Source: Arabidopsis thaliana (taxonomy: Eukaryota > Streptophyta > Magnoliopsida > Brassicales > Brassicaceae). Taken from it: a stretch of DNA of 64,000 nucleotides. The stretch is taken from positions 12,959,001 through 13,023,000 of the forward strand of contig NC_003075.7 of the NCBI RefSeq assembly GCF_000001735.4, read 5' to 3'. This document shows positions 53,801 to 64,000 of this stretch, piece by piece (position 1 is the stretch's first letter; each line of letters begins with the position of its first letter). The translations under genes and the position numbers were made by a program. The notes below the pieces were generated by a model. The model was not told the DNA's origin and searched no databases. It saw only the letters and a list, made by a program, of their open reading frames with translations.

Positions 53801-54912
53801 AAACACAAAAATCTCACATTTGCATAGTAAAGAAATGGCTTGCCTCTGTAAATGCCCTAAATCCACGATCTCGTGAGATGTTATCATTCACAATGCTATT
53901 CAGAGCACCAAGATCAGACGTGAGTAGCCCCGTTAGCTCTCCAACCTAAAACAAATGAACTCAATCTAACATAAGGAAGGTTTGTGCCAAAATGTCTCAA
54001 ACCTGAGCAAACCAAGAATAAAAGGAACAGACCTTGTATTTGTCGAAGAACTCTGCCTGAATATATAAAAGACAAAAAAAAGAAACCCATCAATGATATT
54101 TCAATACAGCCAACAATATAGCTTAAGCGAACTTTGATCATACTAAACAAAACATACCTTCTGGATCAAAACCCTTCTGAAAATCTGAGCTCTTAATATT
54201 GCCATAACGTTTTCCCAGATAGCAGTCATGTTGGTCACAAAAGCAATAGTAAAGATGGGTTCCAACGAGTACAAAACAGCAATTTTGCTCAGCAGCCGCC
54301 ACAAAGGCTCCGGTCTCACCCCAATCAGTACTTCAAAGAATCTACCTTTACTCAAAACAATAACACTTACCATTATAAAACAGCTTCACCAAGATAAAGA
54401 GAAACACAGATGACAAGCTAAATCATCATACCCAAACTTAAACTACATCAAACCCAAAGAGAAAAAAAGAGTACAGTTACAATTTGCTAATGGTGGGAGA
54501 GTGGATTGAAGAACCGATTACCAGAAAAAACAGGCATAGAGAGAGTGCAAGTACTGCATCCAAGGAGAGTCAATAAGCAAACACTGAGCCTGAGCTTGTG
54601 CTTGCTCATCAAGCTCCACAGAAGCCCCCAACTAATTAAATCCTTCGATTCAGCCTCAGATTTGGATTCTTCAATCTTTGGGTCTGGTTCTTCCACGATA
54701 GGCGGCGCTCCGGTAACATAGGCCCGAGCCAATCCATCGGATTTTGCTCTCAACGAATCCCGGAACGGCGCAGTGGAGTTAGGTAAGCTGCAGAAGGAAA
54801 GAAAGGGCTTTAAACCGCCGTAGGGTCTAAGGACTGAAGCTTGGCACCGTCTACGAGCGACGAGGACTCGAGTGGAACCGTGGTGGAAGAGAAGAGTCGT
54901 TGCAGACGCCAT
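50845..54912 (-). CDS. ABCB28: ABCB28, half-size ABC transporter (TAP-like), likely plastid
   Basis: Sixteen exons give 714 residues: 54912-54522, 54345-54158, 54056-54033 (24 nt), 53945-53844, 53649-53559, 53442-53342, 53235-53185, 53077-52949, 52615-52553, 52463-52184, 52080-51932, 51827-51738, 51651-51517, 51429-51373, 51287-51231 and 51081-50845. The N-terminal 60 residues ([20 protein letters not shown]) look like a chloroplast transit peptide. One membrane domain precedes one nucleotide-binding domain: Walker [11 protein letters not shown]-loop VNQEPVLF, signature LSGGQRQ, Walker B ILILDEATSALD, H-loop IAHRLST. Half transporters work as dimers; the cargo is unknown. Intron 4 has a GC donor (GAG|gcaagc at 53843), required by phase. 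An in-frame ATG nine codons upstream (54939) is less likely. Confidence 0.94.
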
Positions 54913-55340
54913 TGATATTGGTCCAACGAGCTTAACCACTGTATAAAATGGCTAATTTTGGAACTTCATCCAAAAAAAAAAAAGCGGCGTCTGAATTTCA
55001 CTTTCCTCTCTCGGACCTTACAAAAAGCCACGTGGACTGATCGATGAACATACAAGTAGTGACGTAACGTCTTCTCTTCTTCTTTTTCGACATCACATAC
55101 ATATACAGTAAGTTAGTAACCGTAGTAACGTCTTTCGAATACGTAAGAACTTGCGATGATGGATTTTTGTGAATCTCAATAATCTGATTTATTCTTTATA
55201 TTCATTAAAAGAAAAAAAAAACTGATTTCACGAGGAGAAATACTTGTCATCAAAACAAAGAAAAACAAAAATCATGATAGTTACACTTTTTTCTTTTCCA
55301 AAAGAAAAGGTTTACGTGAAAGTTCTTCTTGGGTTATGGA
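54913..55340. promoter_or_regulatory. ABCB28 promoter region
   Basis: Non-coding upstream region of the minus-strand ABCB28 gene. It has a CCACGTGG core near 55,029 (gccacgtgga), a palindromic G-box of the kind read by bZIP and bHLH factors in light-regulated plastid genes. Its use is inferred. Confidence 0.5.
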
Positions 55341-55344
55341 CTCG

Positions 55345-56345
55345 ATGCAAACTTTAGCTGTCATCAAAATTGATCATCATGTCTCCTAATTGAGAAATCC
55401 AAATAGCACTTGGAACTTTTGCTATCATCAAAACTGTACTACTTACCCCAGTTGCTCACTTCTTCTTTTGCTATTCAAAGAAGAATATAACCCAAGTTAC
55501 CCAAAATTTTATTTACCAAAGCGTTACCCAACTTTCTATTTACCAAAGAGCCTTACTGCCTTAGATCTTTTGATATTCAACGAAGTACCCGAAACTTATG
55601 TGAAGTGCTTTGCCGGGTAGGTATCTTGCTATATACAAGTGTTCGGATTTTACTGCTACTCACCAATAAAATATCCCGTAGATTTTTACTATATGGATCA
55701 TTTTCTCTTTACAATCTCGAAACATTTGTTATTTCCATAAATACTGTATATAAATCTCTTGATACTACTTATACACTATCACTATCTTGTATCTTTTGCT
55801 ATTTTTTTTTTTTTATTTTTTTTTTGTATCTTTTGCTATTTACATAGGATCGTTTCTCAGTTACATTACTGCCTAAAGCTTTGACTAAATTAAAAGTGTC
55901 TCCGCATCCTTTTTTTTTTATTTGCAGACATTTTTTGAAACCCTTTTTTTTTTTTTTTGGGTCAAACATTTTTTGAAACGTTAGATATCTATATAGTGCC
56001 TATAATTTATCATATTTACAAAAACTCACGGAACTTTGGATATTTACCAAACGTCCTTGAGTCTTGATATTTGCTGAATTAGCAGAAAGGCAGAAACTGT
56101 TGCTATCAACCAACCTGGAACTTTTGCTATTTACATAAGTGCCTAGAACTTTTCTTAGACACGGAAATGCCAGAATCATCTAACTTTAATTTTACAGGTG
56201 AGCCCAAACTTTTTGTTTTCAATTCACTGAATTACGTAATAGTATTATATTTTGATTTGTTGCTTATGGGGAGACCAAAGATTATATATTCTGCACTCAA
56301 AAACATTTGCATTTGACAACAACTTTTACCATTTACATTCGTTTC
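55345..56345. repeat. Degenerate minisatellite of about 25-35 base units downstream of CBF2
   Basis: About 1 kb is built of loosely repeated units close to gaacttttgctatttaccaa followed by agtgccc or agcgttaccc. Clear members start at about 55,411 (ggaacttttgctatcatcaa), 55,505 (attttatttaccaaagcg), 55,530 (actttctatttaccaaag), 55,843 (cttttgctatttacatag), 56,032 (gaactttggatatttaccaa), 56,110 (tggaacttttgctatttaca) and 56,136. The intervening DNA looks like more decayed units, with T-runs expanded at 55,805 and 55,940. Unit lengths and sequence vary strongly, so the array is old. No ORF inside is credible. Confidence 0.65.
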
Positions 56346-56435
56346 TCACAACCAAAAAAAGAAGAAGATCCATTCTAAAAAAGGATCAAATGTATAAAAA
56401 GCTATAATACCAAAAATGGAAATAAAAATCGAATT

Positions 56436-57086
56436 TTAATAGCTCCATAAGGACACGTCATCATCTCCCTCGACATCAAAATTATAGTTCCATTGAACCG
56501 ACGGCGACGGTAAAAGCATCCCTTCGGCCATGTTATCCAACAAACTAGACATCCCCAACATCGCCTCTTCATCCATATAAAACGCATCTTGGCTCTGTTC
56601 CGGCGTATAAATAGCCTCCACCAAGGTCTCCTCCATGTCAAGACCATGAGCATCCGTCGTCATATGACACATCTCATCTTGAAAATTCAACGCGGCTTCA
56701 GCCGCCGCCTTTTGGATTTCCTTGGCACAGGTTGATTCCGGGATTCGTAGCCGCCAAGCCGAGTCAGCGAAATTGAGACAGGCAGATCTGCCACGGAGAG
56801 CTATGGCGGCGACGTCGTGAGCACGAGCTGCCATCTCAGCGGTTTGGAAAGTCCCGAGCCAAATCCTCGTTTTCTTGTTTGGCTCTCTCAACTCACACAC
56901 CCACTTACCGGAGTTTCTTTGACGAACTCCTCTGTAAATTGGGTGACGAGTCTCACGAAACTTCTTCCTTCCCGCTGGTTTCTTGGGGCAGCTCGTGGCA
57001 AGCTTCGGACTGTAATCACCGCCTGAGGAAACCGGAGACTCGTAATCGGAGCCAAACATTTCAGAAAAGGCAGAAAATGAGTTCAT
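56436..57086 (-). CDS. CBF2: CBF2/DREB1C, AP2/ERF cold-response transcription activator
   Basis: Intronless, 216 residues, [20 protein letters not shown] start. The AP2 domain ([19 protein letters not shown] to LNFA, about residues 48-106) binds the CRT/DRE element CCGAC. It is framed by the CBF signatures [15 protein letters not shown] and DSAWR, which set this clade apart from other DREBs. The acidic C-terminus ending DDDVSLWSY is the activation domain. The protein turns on COR genes and freezing tolerance within hours of cold. It is distinguished from its neighbours by [17 protein letters not shown] and [10 protein letters not shown]. It is the leftmost, most downstream member of the tandem; the array downstream of it is not shared with the other copies. 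Confidence 0.98.
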
Positions 57087-57263
57087 TGATCAGAAGAGTA
57101 CTCTGTTTCAAGAAACTGGATAAGGTTTATGAGAGTAGAGTAAGTAGAAGATCTCTGTCTTTTTTTGTATGGTATGATAAAATATTTATTTCTCTATCTA
57201 TCTTTCTTTTCTAATTCAGGTAAGTGTTTGAAGTTATAGAAATGTTGGAGTGAGAGCTTGCTG
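57087..57263 (-). promoter_or_regulatory. CBF2 5' UTR region
   Basis: The first 43 bases upstream of the ATG are identical to the same stretch at CBF3 and nearly so at CBF1. The remainder up to the TATA box at 57264 is less conserved and contains tttctctatctatcttt-type tracts on the plus strand. Confidence 0.7.
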
Positions 57264-57413
57264 TTTATATTGGCCGGAAGATATTTGGATATTTGTGGGG
57301 TCGAACGCGGAGTTTCTGTCTCTGTGAATGCCACGTGGATAAGAAACAGCTAAGCGATCCCACGGTTTTGTAATTATCAAGGCTGTCAATCACTGAGAAT
57401 CTGACATGTGTCC
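57264..57413 (-). promoter_or_regulatory. CBF2 proximal promoter: TATA, CGCG/ICEr2-like box, G-box, ICEr1
   Basis: Minus strand. TATAAA at 57264-57269 directly follows GGCCAAT. An ACTCCGCGT box (ICEr2-like, with a CCGCGT core at 57305-57310 suited to CAMTA factors) is next. A perfect G-box CACGTG at 57332-57337 follows. The exact ICEr1 sequence GGACACATGTCAGA at 57400-57413 is last. ICEr1/ICEr2 are the experimentally defined cold-induction elements of this gene, and G-boxes here are known PIF targets. The order is kept at CBF1 and CBF3 with differences in each box. Confidence 0.85.
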
Positions 57414-57732
57414 TTTGACCCATCTTGGGAAGTTTCTGACCCTTCACTGGTTGATGCCTTTAGGGTATGAATTTTTTTAACTTCTTATTGTATGAATGTG
57501 TGGCTGTAGTTTATAGGGTACGACAACCATTATTAAATATTATTTTTCCACGAATAACAAATTGTTTATAATTGTCGCTTTTCTATGGTAAAATAATTAG
57601 ACATAATGATCCGTGAAACGAGATATTTTCAAATGCTCTTTCTGTCTTTTCTCCATTCACATATCGTGCATTGCAAATACTTCTAGAGTATAGTGAGATT
57701 AGATATTTGTGTCCTAAAAAAAATGTTATATT

Positions 57733-57764
<32 letters not shown>

Positions 57765-59352
57765 TTTGATTTAATTAATCAAGTTTCGTAGCATAGATAT
57801 GTAAATTTAATTATTCAGAAAAATTTATATATTGTTTCAAAAAATTTGAATATGCTAGAGTAATTTCCTAAGATTCACGGAGGCTATAAACTTTTTTACT
57901 CAGGATTTCTTTAAGATATTGAGAAATGAGAACACAAGTTGCTTAAAATCGAAGGAACAAAAAGAAAGCTTTTGGATATTCTTTACATAAGTATACATAC
58001 ATGGTCGAGAATTAACAAGTGGCAGGGGTGTATTAATTGGATATATATGTGAGAGACAAGATAGGGTTTGTGTAATTTGGCAAAAGGAAAATATCAAATA
58101 TGGTAAGTGGTTAGGCGAAAAGACATTTTGCATGTAGTTGATCACAATTTCCAGCATCTCTCTAACAAAAGTATGGTTCCTCCTCATACCTCTTCTCTTC
58201 TTCTCCCCCTTGGCTTAGACTTAGAGCGTCTTCGTCCTCTTTACTCTTCTTTTGTTCAACCACCATCTCTATCTTTTGTCCTCTCCTCTTCATCTTCATT
58301 TCTTCCAACCTTCTTTTTGGTCTGAAAACTCGCCGGACGCCACCGTGAGTTGAGTTTTCCGGCAAAGTAGAAAGGTAAACCTTTTTTACAGAACTTATTT
58401 GTTTTGTTTTCCTTACAACATACAAATTAAAATCATAAATGTTCACCGTCCCTTCGCTACTTGTCTAATAATAATCTGGATTATCAGATTTGCCAGAACA
58501 ACAAAAATAATAATAATTACGAAGTAAACAATTTTATTAATTCTAAAGTCCAAATTAAATTGATTGTGGTTGATCTATTAACCCCGCTTATATATATTTT
58601 TTTTGTTTTTTCGCTTATATATTTCTTAAACTCGACTCATATATTTTTTGAGAAAAAAATACTCCACCGAATAATAATACAGGAGCATAAAATTACTAAA
58701 TAAAAACTGGTTTAAGCCAAGGATTAGACCGATATAGTAGCAAGTTATACATCACTTTCAAATTCCAATAATAGCTATAAAATATCTCAAATCTCAACAA
58801 CAGCAATAAAATATCTTCACAACGAACGTTTCTCTCTCTCGCTACCTCTCGCTATCAATTGTCGTCTCACGGTATTGACATATTCGGAGAAATAATACGA
58901 CAAGGAATGGTGCGCGAAAGAAAGTGGTTTAGGACCTTAAGGTACAGAAAACGACAAACAAGATATTAGTATAAAAAAAGAAAGTAAAACTTGAAAATGA
59001 CATGACATTGGTTACAAGAGGAGCCACGTAGAGGGCCAATGAAGGGGAAGCTACGGACAGTGCTCTCTTGTGGGACCCATATTTCTGTTTATGGTGTACG
59101 GTCTATTATTGGAGGTTTTGCTGAATCGGTTGTTTCGGTTTTATACTCTAATTTAAACAACATTTTTTTGTTACTGCTCTAAAAATACTTGCATTTAAGA
59201 ATAGCCCACACTTATACTGAAACTGAATCAATTTAATTTACACTCGTTTCTCAGTTTTACAAACATAATGAAGATTCCATTCTAAAAAAGGATCTAAAAA
59301 TAATAATAAAATAAAAAGTATCGTACTAAAAATGGAAATAATAATCTGAGTT
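57414..59352. repeat. CBF2-CBF3 spacer, paralogous to the CBF3-CBF1 spacer
   Basis: The spacer aligns by eye with 60,318-62,920. Matching blocks include gttgatcacaat (58,138 and 61,216), aaatcat...ttcgctac (about 58,430 and 61,565), taagccaaggattag/taagccaagaattag (about 58,713 and 61,953), atatctcaaatctcaa (about 58,783 and 61,996), gagccacgta (59,021 and 62,297) and tgtttcggttttata (59,128 and 62,461). It holds no supported protein gene; CT-rich ORFs near 58,107-58,446 on both strands are not conserved as proteins in the other copy. The right end is the CBF3 3' UTR. Confidence 0.8.
58880..59200 (+). ncRNA. Possible SVALKA-like paralogous locus downstream of CBF3
   Basis: This segment is the counterpart of the SVALKA-bearing part of the CBF3-CBF1 spacer: shared gagccacgta, gtggaaccc/gtgggaccc and a gtttcggttttata block in the same order. 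It lies antisense-side and downstream of CBF3 as SVALKA does for CBF1. Transcription is not shown by sequence. The conservation may reflect only common ancestry of the duplicated unit. Confidence 0.25.
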
Positions 59353-60003
59353 TTAATAACTCCATAACGATACGTCGTCATCATCGCCGTCGACTTCATG
59401 ATTATGATTCCACTGTACGGACGGAAGCGGCAAAAGCATCCCTTCTGCCATATTAGCCAACAAACTCGGCATCTCAAACATCGCCTCATCGTGCATATAA
59501 AACGCATTTTCGCTCTGTTCCGCCGTGTAAATAGCCTCCACCAACGTCTCCTCCATGTCGAAGCCATGATCCGTCGTCGCATCACACATCTCATCCTGAA
59601 ACGCCAACGCAGCTTCAGCCGCCGCCTTTTGGATGTCCTTAGCGCAAGTTGATTCCGGGATTCGGAGTCTCCAAGCCGAGTCAGCGAAATTGAGACAGGC
59701 TGATCGGCCACGAAGGGCTAAAGCGGCAACGTCGTGAGCTCGAGCTGCCATCTCAGCGGTTTGAAATGTTCCGAGCCAAATCCTTGTTTTCTTGTTTGGT
59801 TCTCTAACCTCACAAACCCACTTACCGGAGTTTCTCCGACGAACTCCTCTGTATATTGGGTGACGAGTCTCACGAAACTTCTTACGACCCGCCGGTTTCT
59901 TGGGGCAGCTGCTCGCAAGCGTCGGAATATAATCACCGCCTGAGGAAACCGAAGACTCGTAATCGGAGCCAAACATTTCAGAAAAAGCAGAAAATGAGTT
60001 CAT
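59353..60003 (-). CDS. CBF3: CBF3/DREB1A, AP2/ERF cold-response transcription activator
   Basis: Intronless, 216 residues. Same plan as CBF2: a short N-terminus, [17 protein letters not shown]2 domain [24 protein letters not shown], and an acidic tail ending [10 protein letters not shown]. Diagnostic differences are [18 protein letters not shown] and [10 protein letters not shown]. It binds CRT/DRE (CCGAC) in COR15A, RD29A and similar promoters and is the classic ICE1 target. It is the middle gene of the tandem, 2.3 kb from CBF2 and 2.9 kb from CBF1. The 3' UTR shares ccattctaaaaaaggat with CBF2 and, with one extra A, CBF1. Confidence 0.98.
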
Positions 60004-60170
60004 TGATCAGAAGAGTACTCTGTTTCAAGAAACTGGATAAGGTAACTAAAAGATCTCTGTCTTTTTTGTTGGTATGGTTTGCTGAAATAATAGTTTCTCT
60101 CTCTTTCTGTTCTAGTTCAGGTGGATTTAATGTTTGTAGATAAATAAAAGTTGGAGTGAGAGCATGCTGT

Positions 60171-60317
60171 TTTATAATGGCGGAAGATATTTTAGAGGCA
60201 AAAGAAAAGGCGAAGACGGAGTTTGTGTCTCTGGTAATGCCACGTAAACTATACACAGCGAAGCAATTGTAAAATGAGTAGTTTAAGGATTCACTCATTA
60301 AGATCTGCCATGTGTCC
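60171..60317 (-). promoter_or_regulatory. CBF3 proximal promoter: TATA, ICEr2-like, degenerate G-box, ICEr1-like
   Basis: TATAAA at 60171-60176 (minus), ACTCCGTC at 60215-60222 (ICEr2-like without the CGCG core), GTTTACGTGGC at the G-box position (60240-60250; core ACGT kept, CACGTG lost) and GGACACATGGCAGA at 60304-60317 (ICEr1 with one change, E-box CACATG kept). The same four boxes occur in the same order as at CBF2. Confidence 0.8.
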
Positions 60318-62149
60318 AGAGAAGACTTTTTTTGACTTATTCACTCGTTATTATTATACCTTTATGAGTTTTATAAACTCTTTGCGTATGAATGTGTGGC
60401 TGTTAAGGATTTAGTGTACTAGGTGTAGGGTAACCGTTATTCATTATTATATTCCTGAATAAAGAAATTGTCGTTAATTGTTCACCCGTGTATTAGACAT
60501 AAAGATTGTGAGAGGATATTTAAAGATGCTCTTCTTGTGTAATTTCTCCCATTCTTATAGCACATCCTTCTAGAATATGAATTGGGAGAGTAGATATTTG
60601 TGCAACAAAGTATAAAAAAGTATAGAACATAATAATAGTCGTCCGTATATAAGCACGTAAGTCACCAAGTAGTTTTGGCGGAAAAACTTTTGAATTTAAT
60701 TTGGGTGAATGATCAAATGTAACATTTTAGTGCTTTTTACGGTTGAATTAATAAACAGTTTGAAAAGTTATGAAATATGGTATTTTGGAAAATTTAACTA
60801 GAAGGGTAACAACATATTGTAACTTTAGGAAAACCCTAAATAGACTGCTAATTAAAATTCTCAATCATCATTATACATATAAAATAAATAATCAAATATT
60901 ATTGGTTTAGAGTTATAAAAAATTGTTAATCACAAAAATGATGATTGAGAATTTAACAAAAAGTTGTTTTTTTAATATGTATAAAAAATTTAGAATTTAG
61001 ATCAATTAGAAGCATGCAGTTGTAATTGTAGATCGGATCGCGAAACGAGTCTGAAACCTAATTTTGATCACATAAAAGTAGTTAATTATATTTAATATTT
61101 TCTACCATCATGCATTAACAAATGGTGGGGTGTGTTAGATTTATGAGACAAAATAGTAAAAGGTTTGAGTATATGACAAAAAGAAAATGTAATAAAAGAA
61201 CATATTACATTAAGTTGATCACAATCTCAACGCCCTCTCTCTCACTCGAAACTCTTTTCTCTCTTTTCTCTCCAGCCAGCGCACTTCCTTCTCACTCAAA
61301 GAAGTTTCTCTTCTTCATGTATTCTCTCATTTCCTTCAACCACCACGTCCTTAGTCATATGATTCTCTATTCTTTAGCTACCTCTTCCCCACCTTCCCTT
61401 GACGAAAATTCTTGCATAATTCATAATTAGAAGAATTTCCTCCCAAGGTACTCGTGCTAACCCTTTTGATCACATACTTTCTTTTGATCACATACGTATT
61501 TATTTGACCCATTTGAATGTTCTACATCCATCATGATTTTTTTTGTTTTACGGTATGCAATCTAAAATCATGTGTTCTCCATCCATTCGCTACTGATTTA
61601 ATCATTATCTGAGTTTTTCAACAAAAAGAACACAATTTATAAACATAGACAACCATGATTAGTTTCGGAAGTCAAAATAAAAAGCATGTTAATCAATTGT
61701 CTTTTATCTCGTATCCCCAATTTTACTTCTCAAAGTACTAAAATAGTCTAAAAACAATCATACGTACGTAATAAGAAAATAATTTACTTCCTGCTGTGTT
61801 TAAACAAAACTTCTATGAGATGTAAAAAAAGAAAAAGAGTCTACGATGGATGATCAAGCGTAATTGCTTTGTTACGTCTAAAAGGTGTTTAACAAAACTA
61901 TAGCGCAGAAAATAATCAGTTTAATTAACTAAACAAAAACATGTTAGTGGATTAAGCCAAGAATTAGTCCGATAGAACTATAAAATCTACAAAATATCTC
62001 AAATCTCAATAATACGTATATAATATCTCAATAATACCTATATAATATCTCAACTCCAATCAGAAAGCTAAATAAAATATCAGCATAAGTTATATTCGCT
62101 TCCAAAAAAAGTCTGCCTCGTTACCTACCTCTCACACTCAAGTCTCTCA
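60318..62149. repeat. Left part of the CBF3-CBF1 spacer, upstream region of CBF3
   Basis: Non-coding, paralogous to the CBF2-CBF3 spacer (matching blocks listed there). It has a CT-rich stretch at 61,210-61,430 and repeated aatatctcaataatac-type words at about 61,990-62,050, which are a small local expansion relative to the other spacer. Confidence 0.7.
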
Positions 62150-62650
62150 CGTTATTTGAGATATTTAGGAGAAGCAAGACGACAACGAGAAGAAAAAAGA
62201 GTGGGTATGGTCAAGAAAAAGACAAATTATGATTTTAGTGGAAAATAGAAAGTAAAGAGTGAAGTGACGCGACACGTGGTACGAGACTCCACAGCGAGCC
62301 ACGTAAGGGGGGACAAAGAAGAGAAGGTATGGACAATGGTTTCCGCGGTCGAGCCACGCTTTCAGAATTCTGATTGGCACTGGGTTATCTTGTGGAACCC
62401 ATCTGAAAGATATTTTTGGTTGTCGTACGGATTTGTTTATTTCGGGTTTGTTGAATTAGTTTGTTTCGGTTTTATACACTATTTTAGGAAACTTTTTTTT
62501 ATATTCTTTATAGTGAACTGGGCTGAATTTTTTTGGTTGCTAGATTCGAGACGAGCCAATTTATGTAATATTTTGTGGCTTTCTGTTGCTAAATTGTAAG
62601 ATCTGTAACTTACATGAGATAGAATAAAATAATGTAATGCAGGTTTTGTG
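62150..62650 (+). ncRNA. SVALKA: SVALKA antisense lncRNA region (approximate)
   Basis: The cold-induced lncRNA SVALKA is known to be transcribed between CBF3 and CBF1, antisense to CBF1; readthrough gives an antisense CBF1 transcript that causes polymerase collision and lowers CBF1. Given the orientation here it must lie on the plus strand in this spacer, heading into the CBF1 3' end. Plus-strand AATAAAATAATG near 62,621-62,632 is a possible poly(A) signal. The exact ends cannot be read from sequence. A 111-codon ORF at 62264 is not conserved in the paralogous spacer and is probably not translated. Confidence 0.5.
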
Positions 62651-62920
62651 GCATATTTACAAACATCATCCACGTGTAATGATCTGTCCACATATTTTGC
62701 CTTGAAAGCAACTACAATATGACTTTTAATATCTTTTTTGTTAAATATTTGACTTTTAACTTATGTGAAGCAAAGAAGTAGAAAACGATTTGTTTTGTAT
62801 TGAATTATTTTCCACTCGTTTCTACAACAATAAAATAAAATAAAATGAAGGAACCATTCTAAAAAAAGGAACTAGAATATTTTCAAACTATAGTACAAAA
62901 ATGGAAACGACTATCGAATA

Positions 62921-63562
62921 TTAGTAACTCCAAAGCGACACGTCACCATCTCCTTCGCCGTCATAATTATGATTCCATTGAACAGACGGCGGCGGTAAAA
63001 GCATGCCTTCAGCCATATTATCCAACAAAGTCGGCATCCCAAACATTGTCTCCTCATCCATATAAAACGCACCTTCGCTCTGTTCCGGTGTATAAATAGC
63101 TTCCACCATCGTCTCCTCCATGTCCAGGCCATGATTCGTGGTCGTCGTATCACACGTCTCATCTTGAAAAGCCAACGCCGCTTCAGCAGCCGCTTTTTGG
63201 ATATCCTTGGCGCATGTTGACTCCGGGATTCGTAGCCGCCAAGCCGAGTCAGCGAAGTTGAGACATGCTGATCGGCCACGGAGGGCTAATGCAGCGACGT
63301 CGTGAGCACGAGCTGCCATCTCAGCGGTTTGGAAAGTCCCGAGCCAAATCCTGGTTTTCTTGTTTGGCTCTCTCACTTCAGAAACCCACTTACCGGAGTT
63401 TCTTTGACGAACTCCTCTGTAAATTGGGTGACGAGTCTCACGAAACTTCTTACGGCCCGCCGGTTTCTTCGGACAACTCGTGGCCAACGTCGGACAATAA
63501 TCTCCGCCTTGAGGCTCGTAATCGGAGCCAAACATTTCAGAAAAAGCTGAAAATGAGTTCAT
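62921..63562 (-). CDS. CBF1: CBF1/DREB1B, AP2/ERF cold-response transcription activator
   Basis: Intronless, 213 residues, three fewer than its neighbours: the N-terminus reads [12 protein letters not shown] instead of [15 protein letters not shown]-like sequence. It has an AP2 domain [19 protein letters not shown] with both CBF flanking signatures, and an acidic tail ending DGDVSLWSY. It binds CCGAC elements of COR genes. Rightmost gene of the tandem. It shares the 5' UTR start and 3' UTR words with CBF2 and CBF3. The neighbouring plus-strand SVALKA locus points into its 3' end, so antisense control is expected here. Confidence 0.98.
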
Positions 63563-63763
63563 TGATCAGAGTACTCTGTTTCAAGAAACTGGATAAGGTT
63601 TAAGTAGTACGTAGTTACTAGAGTTCTCAGTCTTTTTGGATTAATAAAAGATAGTATATCTGTCTTGGTAAAGCTATTTATATCTCTCTCTCTTTTTTTT
63701 CTTTTCAGGTAGATTCTTTTTCAAGTGTGTAGTTAGTATAAAAAGTGAGAGTGAGAATTGGTG

Positions 63764-63903
63764 TTTATATTGGCCGGAGGAGAGATAACGGATATGTGGG
63801 GAGCACACGGAGTTTTTGTCTCTGTGAATGACACGTGTATAGTACATAGCGAAGCAATCCCACGATGTTCCACTCGCTGTCTGACGTGTGTCCTTTGACC
63901 CTT
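63764..63903 (-). promoter_or_regulatory. CBF1 proximal promoter: TATA, ICEr2-like, G-box, ICEr1-like
   Basis: TATAAA at 63764-63769 directly after GGCCAAT, ACTCCGTGT at 63805-63813, a perfect CACGTG at 63832-63837 and GGACACACGTCAGA at 63890-63903. The last is ICEr1 with the E-box changed (CACATG to CACACG), creating an ACGT core instead. The promoter continues to the window edge. Confidence 0.8.
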
Positions 63904-64000
63904 GTAAAGAGACTTTTGACTCTTCACTCGTTAACCTTTATGAGTTCTTTAAATTCTATCGAGTGTGTGCCTGTGTGGTTGGCTGGCTGCTGTTGTTACA
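63904..64000. other. Window edge, distal CBF1 promoter
   Basis: Still alignable with the CBF3 upstream region (ttcactcgttaacctttatgagttc here, cactcgtt...cctttatgagtttt at about 60,340-60,372). The window cuts the promoter. Confidence 0.6.

Follow-up and report, generated by a model that had tools for sequence, protein, structure and literature searches.

The segment downstream of CBF3 in Arabidopsis thaliana as the probable 3' part of SVALNA, an antisense unit with the same duplication origin as SVALKA

SVALKA is a cold-induced lncRNA of the CBF3-CBF1 spacer, antisense to CBF1, for which a polymerase collision mechanism has been reported (Kindgren et al. 2018, PMC6212407). Measured from the CBF1 start codon, its cold starts were mapped at about 2360 (distal) and about 1386 (proximal), with splicing between 1386 and 2113 and poly(A) sites at 846-897, and 110 bp separate SVALKA and CBF1 (PMC6212407). 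A second antisense lncRNA, SVALNA (SVN), has since been described downstream of CBF3 by Rosenkranz et al. 2025 (PMC12549994); it is cold-induced and exosome-sensitive, being barely detected in the wild type and accumulating in hen2-2 and sop2-1. The main SVN start was placed downstream of CBF3, at 1124 bp from its poly(A) site, with transcript isoforms measuring 514 and 1103 bp. From polymerase stalling at the SVN locus and from mutants, the authors conclude that CBF3 is limited by RNA polymerase II collision; in their view, transcription seemingly matters more than the RNA product. SVN is also up in cbf3-1 and cbf3-2 (PMC12549994). At 22 C, H3K27me3 is reported at the promoter of SVN and, of the two SVALKA starts, at the distal one alone, and it is lost in the cold (PMC12549994).

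SVALKA and SVALNA share homologous sequence, orientation to their CBF gene, cold induction, and a reported collision mechanism. They differ in several respects: two starts have been mapped for SVALKA, one of its isoforms is spliced and more stable, and a PRC2 role in trans at CBF3 has been reported for it (PMC6212407, PMC12549994), whereas SVALNA is unstable, with one main start and no reported splicing (PMC12549994). In Brassica, putative SVALKA-like lincRNAs beside CBF1 paralogues have a similar orientation and distance to the CBF1 gene (PMC9421480); these were found by position, and sequence homologues of SVALKA are described there for Camelina, not for more distant species. SVALKA and SVALNA are themselves called positionally conserved in PMC12549994, whose main sections were found to contain neither a sequence alignment nor a comparison of splice sites nor any mention of evening elements. 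What is given below on homology from start to start, on paired clusters of evening elements, and on splice sites may be new relative to that main text.

The DNA analysed here (the window) is a stretch of 64,000 nucleotides, to which all positions refer. It holds three minus-strand genes for AP2-domain proteins, which we take to be CBF2, CBF3, and CBF1 of Arabidopsis thaliana from their protein sequences and order (Table 1). The CRT/DRE core CCGAC has no site on either strand in 54913-56435, 57087-59352, and 60004-62920, and CBF feedback via CRT/DRE sites in the spacers was rejected for lack of them. An Rfam scan of 54900-64000 at gathering score gave no family match, as expected for an lncRNA, which led to the rejection of a known structured RNA there. 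The longest plus-strand ATG open reading frame in 58112-59230 has 50 codons, also as expected for an lncRNA. Within SVALKA, a plus-strand ATG open reading frame of 87 codons was observed at 62336-62599.

Table 1. Positions, strands, and bases of assignment of features in and around the CBF cluster of the window.
Feature	Position	Strand	Basis and remarks
CBF2 coding sequence	56436-57086	minus	Open reading frame, AP2-domain protein
Putative homologue of the segment that svk-2 should remove	58001-58034	plus	Alignment; position of the deletion in the window estimated
SVN long isoform, estimated outer limits	58079-59233	plus	Start 58079-58130, end 59182-59233; published distances on the estimated CBF3 poly(A) site
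Main SVN start zone, estimated	58079-58130	plus	1124 bp from the estimated CBF3 poly(A) site
Two evening elements (AAAATATCT), just upstream of the block	58779-58816 (58779, 58808)	plus	Motif search, local shuffles 0/2000
Block under study, homologous to SVALKA 62162-62527 with its proximal start, acceptor zone, and 3' body	58880-59200	plus	blastn, global alignment, shuffles
Counterpart of the SVALKA acceptor zone in the alignment, with one remaining AG (58888)	58885-58896	plus	Alignment
CBF3 coding sequence, 216 aa, reported SVALNA target	59353-60003	minus	Open reading frame, AP2-domain protein
SVALKA	61202-62716	plus	Converted distances: distal start ~61202, proximal start ~62176, intron ~61448-62176, poly(A) 62665-62716
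SVALKA cluster matching the two evening elements	61991-62050	plus	Motif search; evening element at 61991, shorter AATATCT at 62022 and 62044
CBF1 coding sequence	62921-63562	minus	Open reading frame, AP2-domain protein

To place SVALKA on the window, the published distances (Fig. 1 legend of PMC6212407) were converted by counting back from 63562, the position of the CBF1 start codon. A GT at 61448 (AAG/GTACTC) fits the converted position of the donor, about 61449, and several AGs near 62176 fit that of the acceptor, the published distances leaving the choice among these AGs unspecified. In the same legend, one number, 1386, is given for both the proximal start and one intron end. From the proximal start to the poly(A) cluster there are 489-540 bases, which is shorter than the published lengths of about 750 for SVALKA alpha (PMC12549994) and, according to a review, 696 nucleotides for SVK-S (PMC11677326). 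RNA tails may account for part of this gap; if they are insufficient, the proximal start would lie nearer 62.0 kb, inside the evening-element cluster.

A preliminary description of this DNA had claimed a homologue of SVALKA in the CBF2-CBF3 spacer, in the same place relative to CBF3. The homology and its extent were computed here. Between the two spacers, blastn gave eight pieces, those touching the block being 58766-59062 / 62029-62338 (65%) and 59114-59169 / 62444-62500 (81%, E 6e-9); with the 321-base block as query against the whole window, only this 57-base island was matched besides the block itself. In a global alignment with its counterpart in the CBF3-CBF1 spacer, the block has 64% identity over 303 aligned bases. 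Its local score against 62100-62600 lies 14-15 sd above dinucleotide shuffles, none of 300 reaching it under two scoring schemes, and the same count (0/300, two scorings) was obtained for 58880-59100, i.e., the block without its best island. The claimed homology is confirmed by the blastn and shuffle results, and it extends beyond the block, 57980-58200 and 58200-58690 each scoring above all 300 shuffles against their counterparts under two scorings. The positional part of the claim holds only approximately, as 184 bp separate the end of the island from the CBF3 stop, against 421 bp between its partner and the stop of CBF1.

From 58000 to 59359, identity is uneven (0.42-0.74 per 80-base step). 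At fourfold-degenerate sites, CBF3 and CBF1 are identical in 54 of 83 cases (0.65), which is close to the 0.64 of the block, so that constraint is not evident for the block taken as a whole, which appears to have diverged about as fast as silent sites. Such divergence would be expected if the block were a neutral relic of the tandem duplication that is transcribed merely through its position between the SVN start and CBF3, its own sequence being inert. Collision, moreover, requires transcription and not a particular sequence, in line with the ranking of transcription above the RNA product in PMC12549994. On the other side, the island (59106-59169 / 62437-62500) is the best-kept stretch 3' of CBF3 and CBF1 (73% over 64 bases, 81% over 57, the latter at 59114-59169), and the evening-element cluster is likewise better kept than average. 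We regard inertness of the block as about evenly balanced with its opposite, and as compatible with membership in SVALNA. A minus-strand TATA-like site is carried by the island in both copies (59139, 62470).

Downstream of CBF2, no SVALKA-like block was detected by blastn or by shuffle-tested local alignment, both computed here. With the two scorings, 66 and 55 of 300 shuffles reached the local score of the block against 55000-56330, and 6 and 63 of 100 that of 57980-59200 against 54950-56330. Since the block scores no better than shuffles there, a counterpart 3' of CBF2 was rejected. The sole same-strand blastn match between this region and either spacer is a 3' UTR stretch, 56331-56430; a 26-base inverted match to 61814-61839 (E 0.004) is probably due to chance.

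For the placement of SVALNA, a literature search yielded no published coordinate of the CBF3 poly(A) site. The 110 bp between SVALKA and CBF1 were assumed to be the gap separating the poly(A) cluster of SVALKA from the 3' end of CBF1, which puts that end at ~62775-62826; carried through the CBF1-CBF3 3' UTR alignment, this gives a CBF3 poly(A) site at ~59203-59254, the lower bound lying past the aligned piece. With the published distances (PMC12549994), the main SVN start would then fall near 58.1 kb, some 0.75 kb upstream of the block, and the short isoform would end at ~58593-58644. All or nearly all of the block would accordingly lie past the end of the short isoform and form the 3' portion of the long one. 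In the alignment of the two units, the SVALKA distal start 61202 corresponds to 58125 (91 of 138 aligned bases identical around it, SVALKA 61100-61240), and the proximal start 62176 to 58894, at the beginning of the block. As the independently placed start zone (Table 1) includes 58125, the main SVN start is most likely a duplicate of the distal SVALKA start, its window coordinates being estimates; the reported H3K27me3 pattern agrees with this. In svk-2, a 32-bp segment located 66 bp upstream of the distal SVALKA start is deleted (PMC12549994). Within the presumed svk-2 segment and its counterpart, each unit carries one CANNTG E-box, and the two are aligned with each other (58016, 61119).

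Judged by their sequence, SVALNA and SVALKA are duplicates, start to start, and we consider it very probable that SVALNA, as an antisense lncRNA unit, has a common duplication origin with SVALKA and that the block makes up its 3' portion. The block lies downstream of CBF3 and, by the orientation of the homology, on the opposite strand, which is also the strand of the transcription reported in PMC12549994. The preliminary description had predicted for it a cold-induced, plus-strand antisense brake on CBF3 as a paralogue of SVALKA. This agrees with the published SVALNA in locus, strand, target gene, and predicted mechanism, and the homology it called for at the mapped SVALKA starts is present at both the distal and the proximal one. 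It erred, however, in looking for the start within the block and within 58.7-59.4 kb, as the published main start, near 58.1 kb by our placement, is upstream of both. The regulatory idea was right in substance, wrong on the main start, and already published (PMC12549994).

The idea that the block is simply an untranscribed flank on the 3' side of CBF3 and holds no lncRNA would suit its position directly downstream of the gene and the lack of an Rfam match. It is nevertheless very hard to reconcile with the plus-strand nascent transcription, Northern blots, and RT-qPCR of SVN (PMC12549994), and the 3' UTR similarity common to CBF2 and CBF3 begins only at ~59236 (blastn), outside the block; we consider such a flank highly improbable.

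The evening element AAAATATCT occurs at seven sites in the window against 2.5 expected, a number reached in none of 100 shuffles, and six of the seven fall in the CBF cluster (57621-62416). Both lncRNA units have an evening-element cluster near the proximal start or, in SVALNA, its homologue, the SVALNA elements lying ~80-115 bp upstream of 58894. In plus-strand local shuffles, the full element was matched in 0 of 2000 for the SVALNA segment and in 79 of 2000 for the SVALKA segment, and the short form in 4 and 3 of 2000, respectively, counts that are biased as both segments were picked after the clusters had been seen. Clock-related MYB-like factors bind the evening element in the CBF3 and CBF2 promoters, and at cold-inducible genes CCA1/LHY repress and RVE4/RVE8 activate (reviewed in PMC11060690). 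A literature search for SVALKA together with the evening element found no paper. It is hypothesized here that evening elements may act on the SVALKA and SVALNA lncRNAs.

These elements, together with the alignment of the block's beginning with the SVALKA proximal start, raise the question of whether the block has a plus-strand start of its own, a duplicate of the SVALKA proximal promoter that would be silent or minor in normal cold and usable otherwise or when the main start is lost. The Results text of PMC12549994 reports a rise of SVN and a fall of CBF3 on deletion of the SVN start together with a piece of the promoter, which is there called corroboration. Read literally, this fits an opposition of SVN and CBF3, not a loss of SVN; the rise in the svn lines may be a wording slip or may reflect use of another start. 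If the rise is real, it would speak for a start in the block; if it is a slip, this support falls away. Although sequence homologous to both SVALKA starts exists in SVALNA, only one main SVN start is reported in PMC12549994, where a switch of starts is described for SVALKA and not for SVN, and initiation inside the block has no mention in its Introduction, Results, Discussion, and Methods. A dormant or minor start of this kind is therefore unlikely in our judgement, and equally doubtful is the more specific proposal that the block keeps a second, evening-element-driven SVALNA start homologous to the SVALKA proximal promoter. If such a second start were true, the reach of the clock factors CCA1/LHY and RVE4/RVE8 would extend from CBF promoters to both antisense brakes, and the reported SVALNA rise and CBF3 drop after deletion of the main start would be explained.

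Splicing is reported for SVALKA and not for SVALNA (PMC12549994). On the donor side, the GT of the SVALKA donor is matched in the alignment by a GT at 58367 of SVALNA, which also has AAG/GTAAAC at 58375. On the acceptor side, one of the six AGs at SVALKA 62150-62190 is an AG in the SVALNA alignment; SVALNA still has AGs at 58888 and 58903. Across SVALKA 61100-62529, only 16 of 59 AGs are kept (AGs opposite gaps excluded), and the five of six missing from the acceptor zone are therefore not exceptional. This control weakens the idea of a special loss of the splice acceptor in SVN. The differences in acceptor-zone AGs are possibly a cause of unspliced SVN, a link that, like the exact window coordinates, we infer.

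In the scheme proposed for SVALNA, a CBF gene and its downstream region would have been copied in tandem, giving rise to the SVALKA and SVALNA units. In the cold, RNA polymerase II would initiate on the plus strand near 58.1 kb and traverse the block, and polymerases on this strand would meet those transcribing CBF3, so that some CBF3 transcripts would end early, as in the published mechanism. The nuclear exosome would then remove the SVALNA RNA, as published, and at CBF3 the homologue of the SVALKA distal start would do the main work. The transcription of SVN, its cold induction and instability, and its rise in cbf3 mutants are as reported by others (PMC12549994). Several points speak against assigning the block to SVALNA: I) the CBF3 poly(A) site is estimated rather than measured; II) the CBF3-CBF1 spacer is the only place for which antisense cold starts are named in the 2018 study (PMC6212407), although an unstable SVN could escape detection in the wild type; III) the svn start deletion is reported with more SVN and less CBF3 (PMC12549994), which a simple loss-of-SVN model does not predict; and IV) the block, with an identity equal to that of fourfold sites, appears to be without sign of constraint.

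With two of the three tandem CBF genes having a duplicated antisense unit, and none detected 3' of CBF2, asymmetric control of the cluster could have its basis in the sequence. The start-to-start alignment also makes the differences between SVALKA and SVALNA in start choice, splicing, and stability traceable to particular bases.
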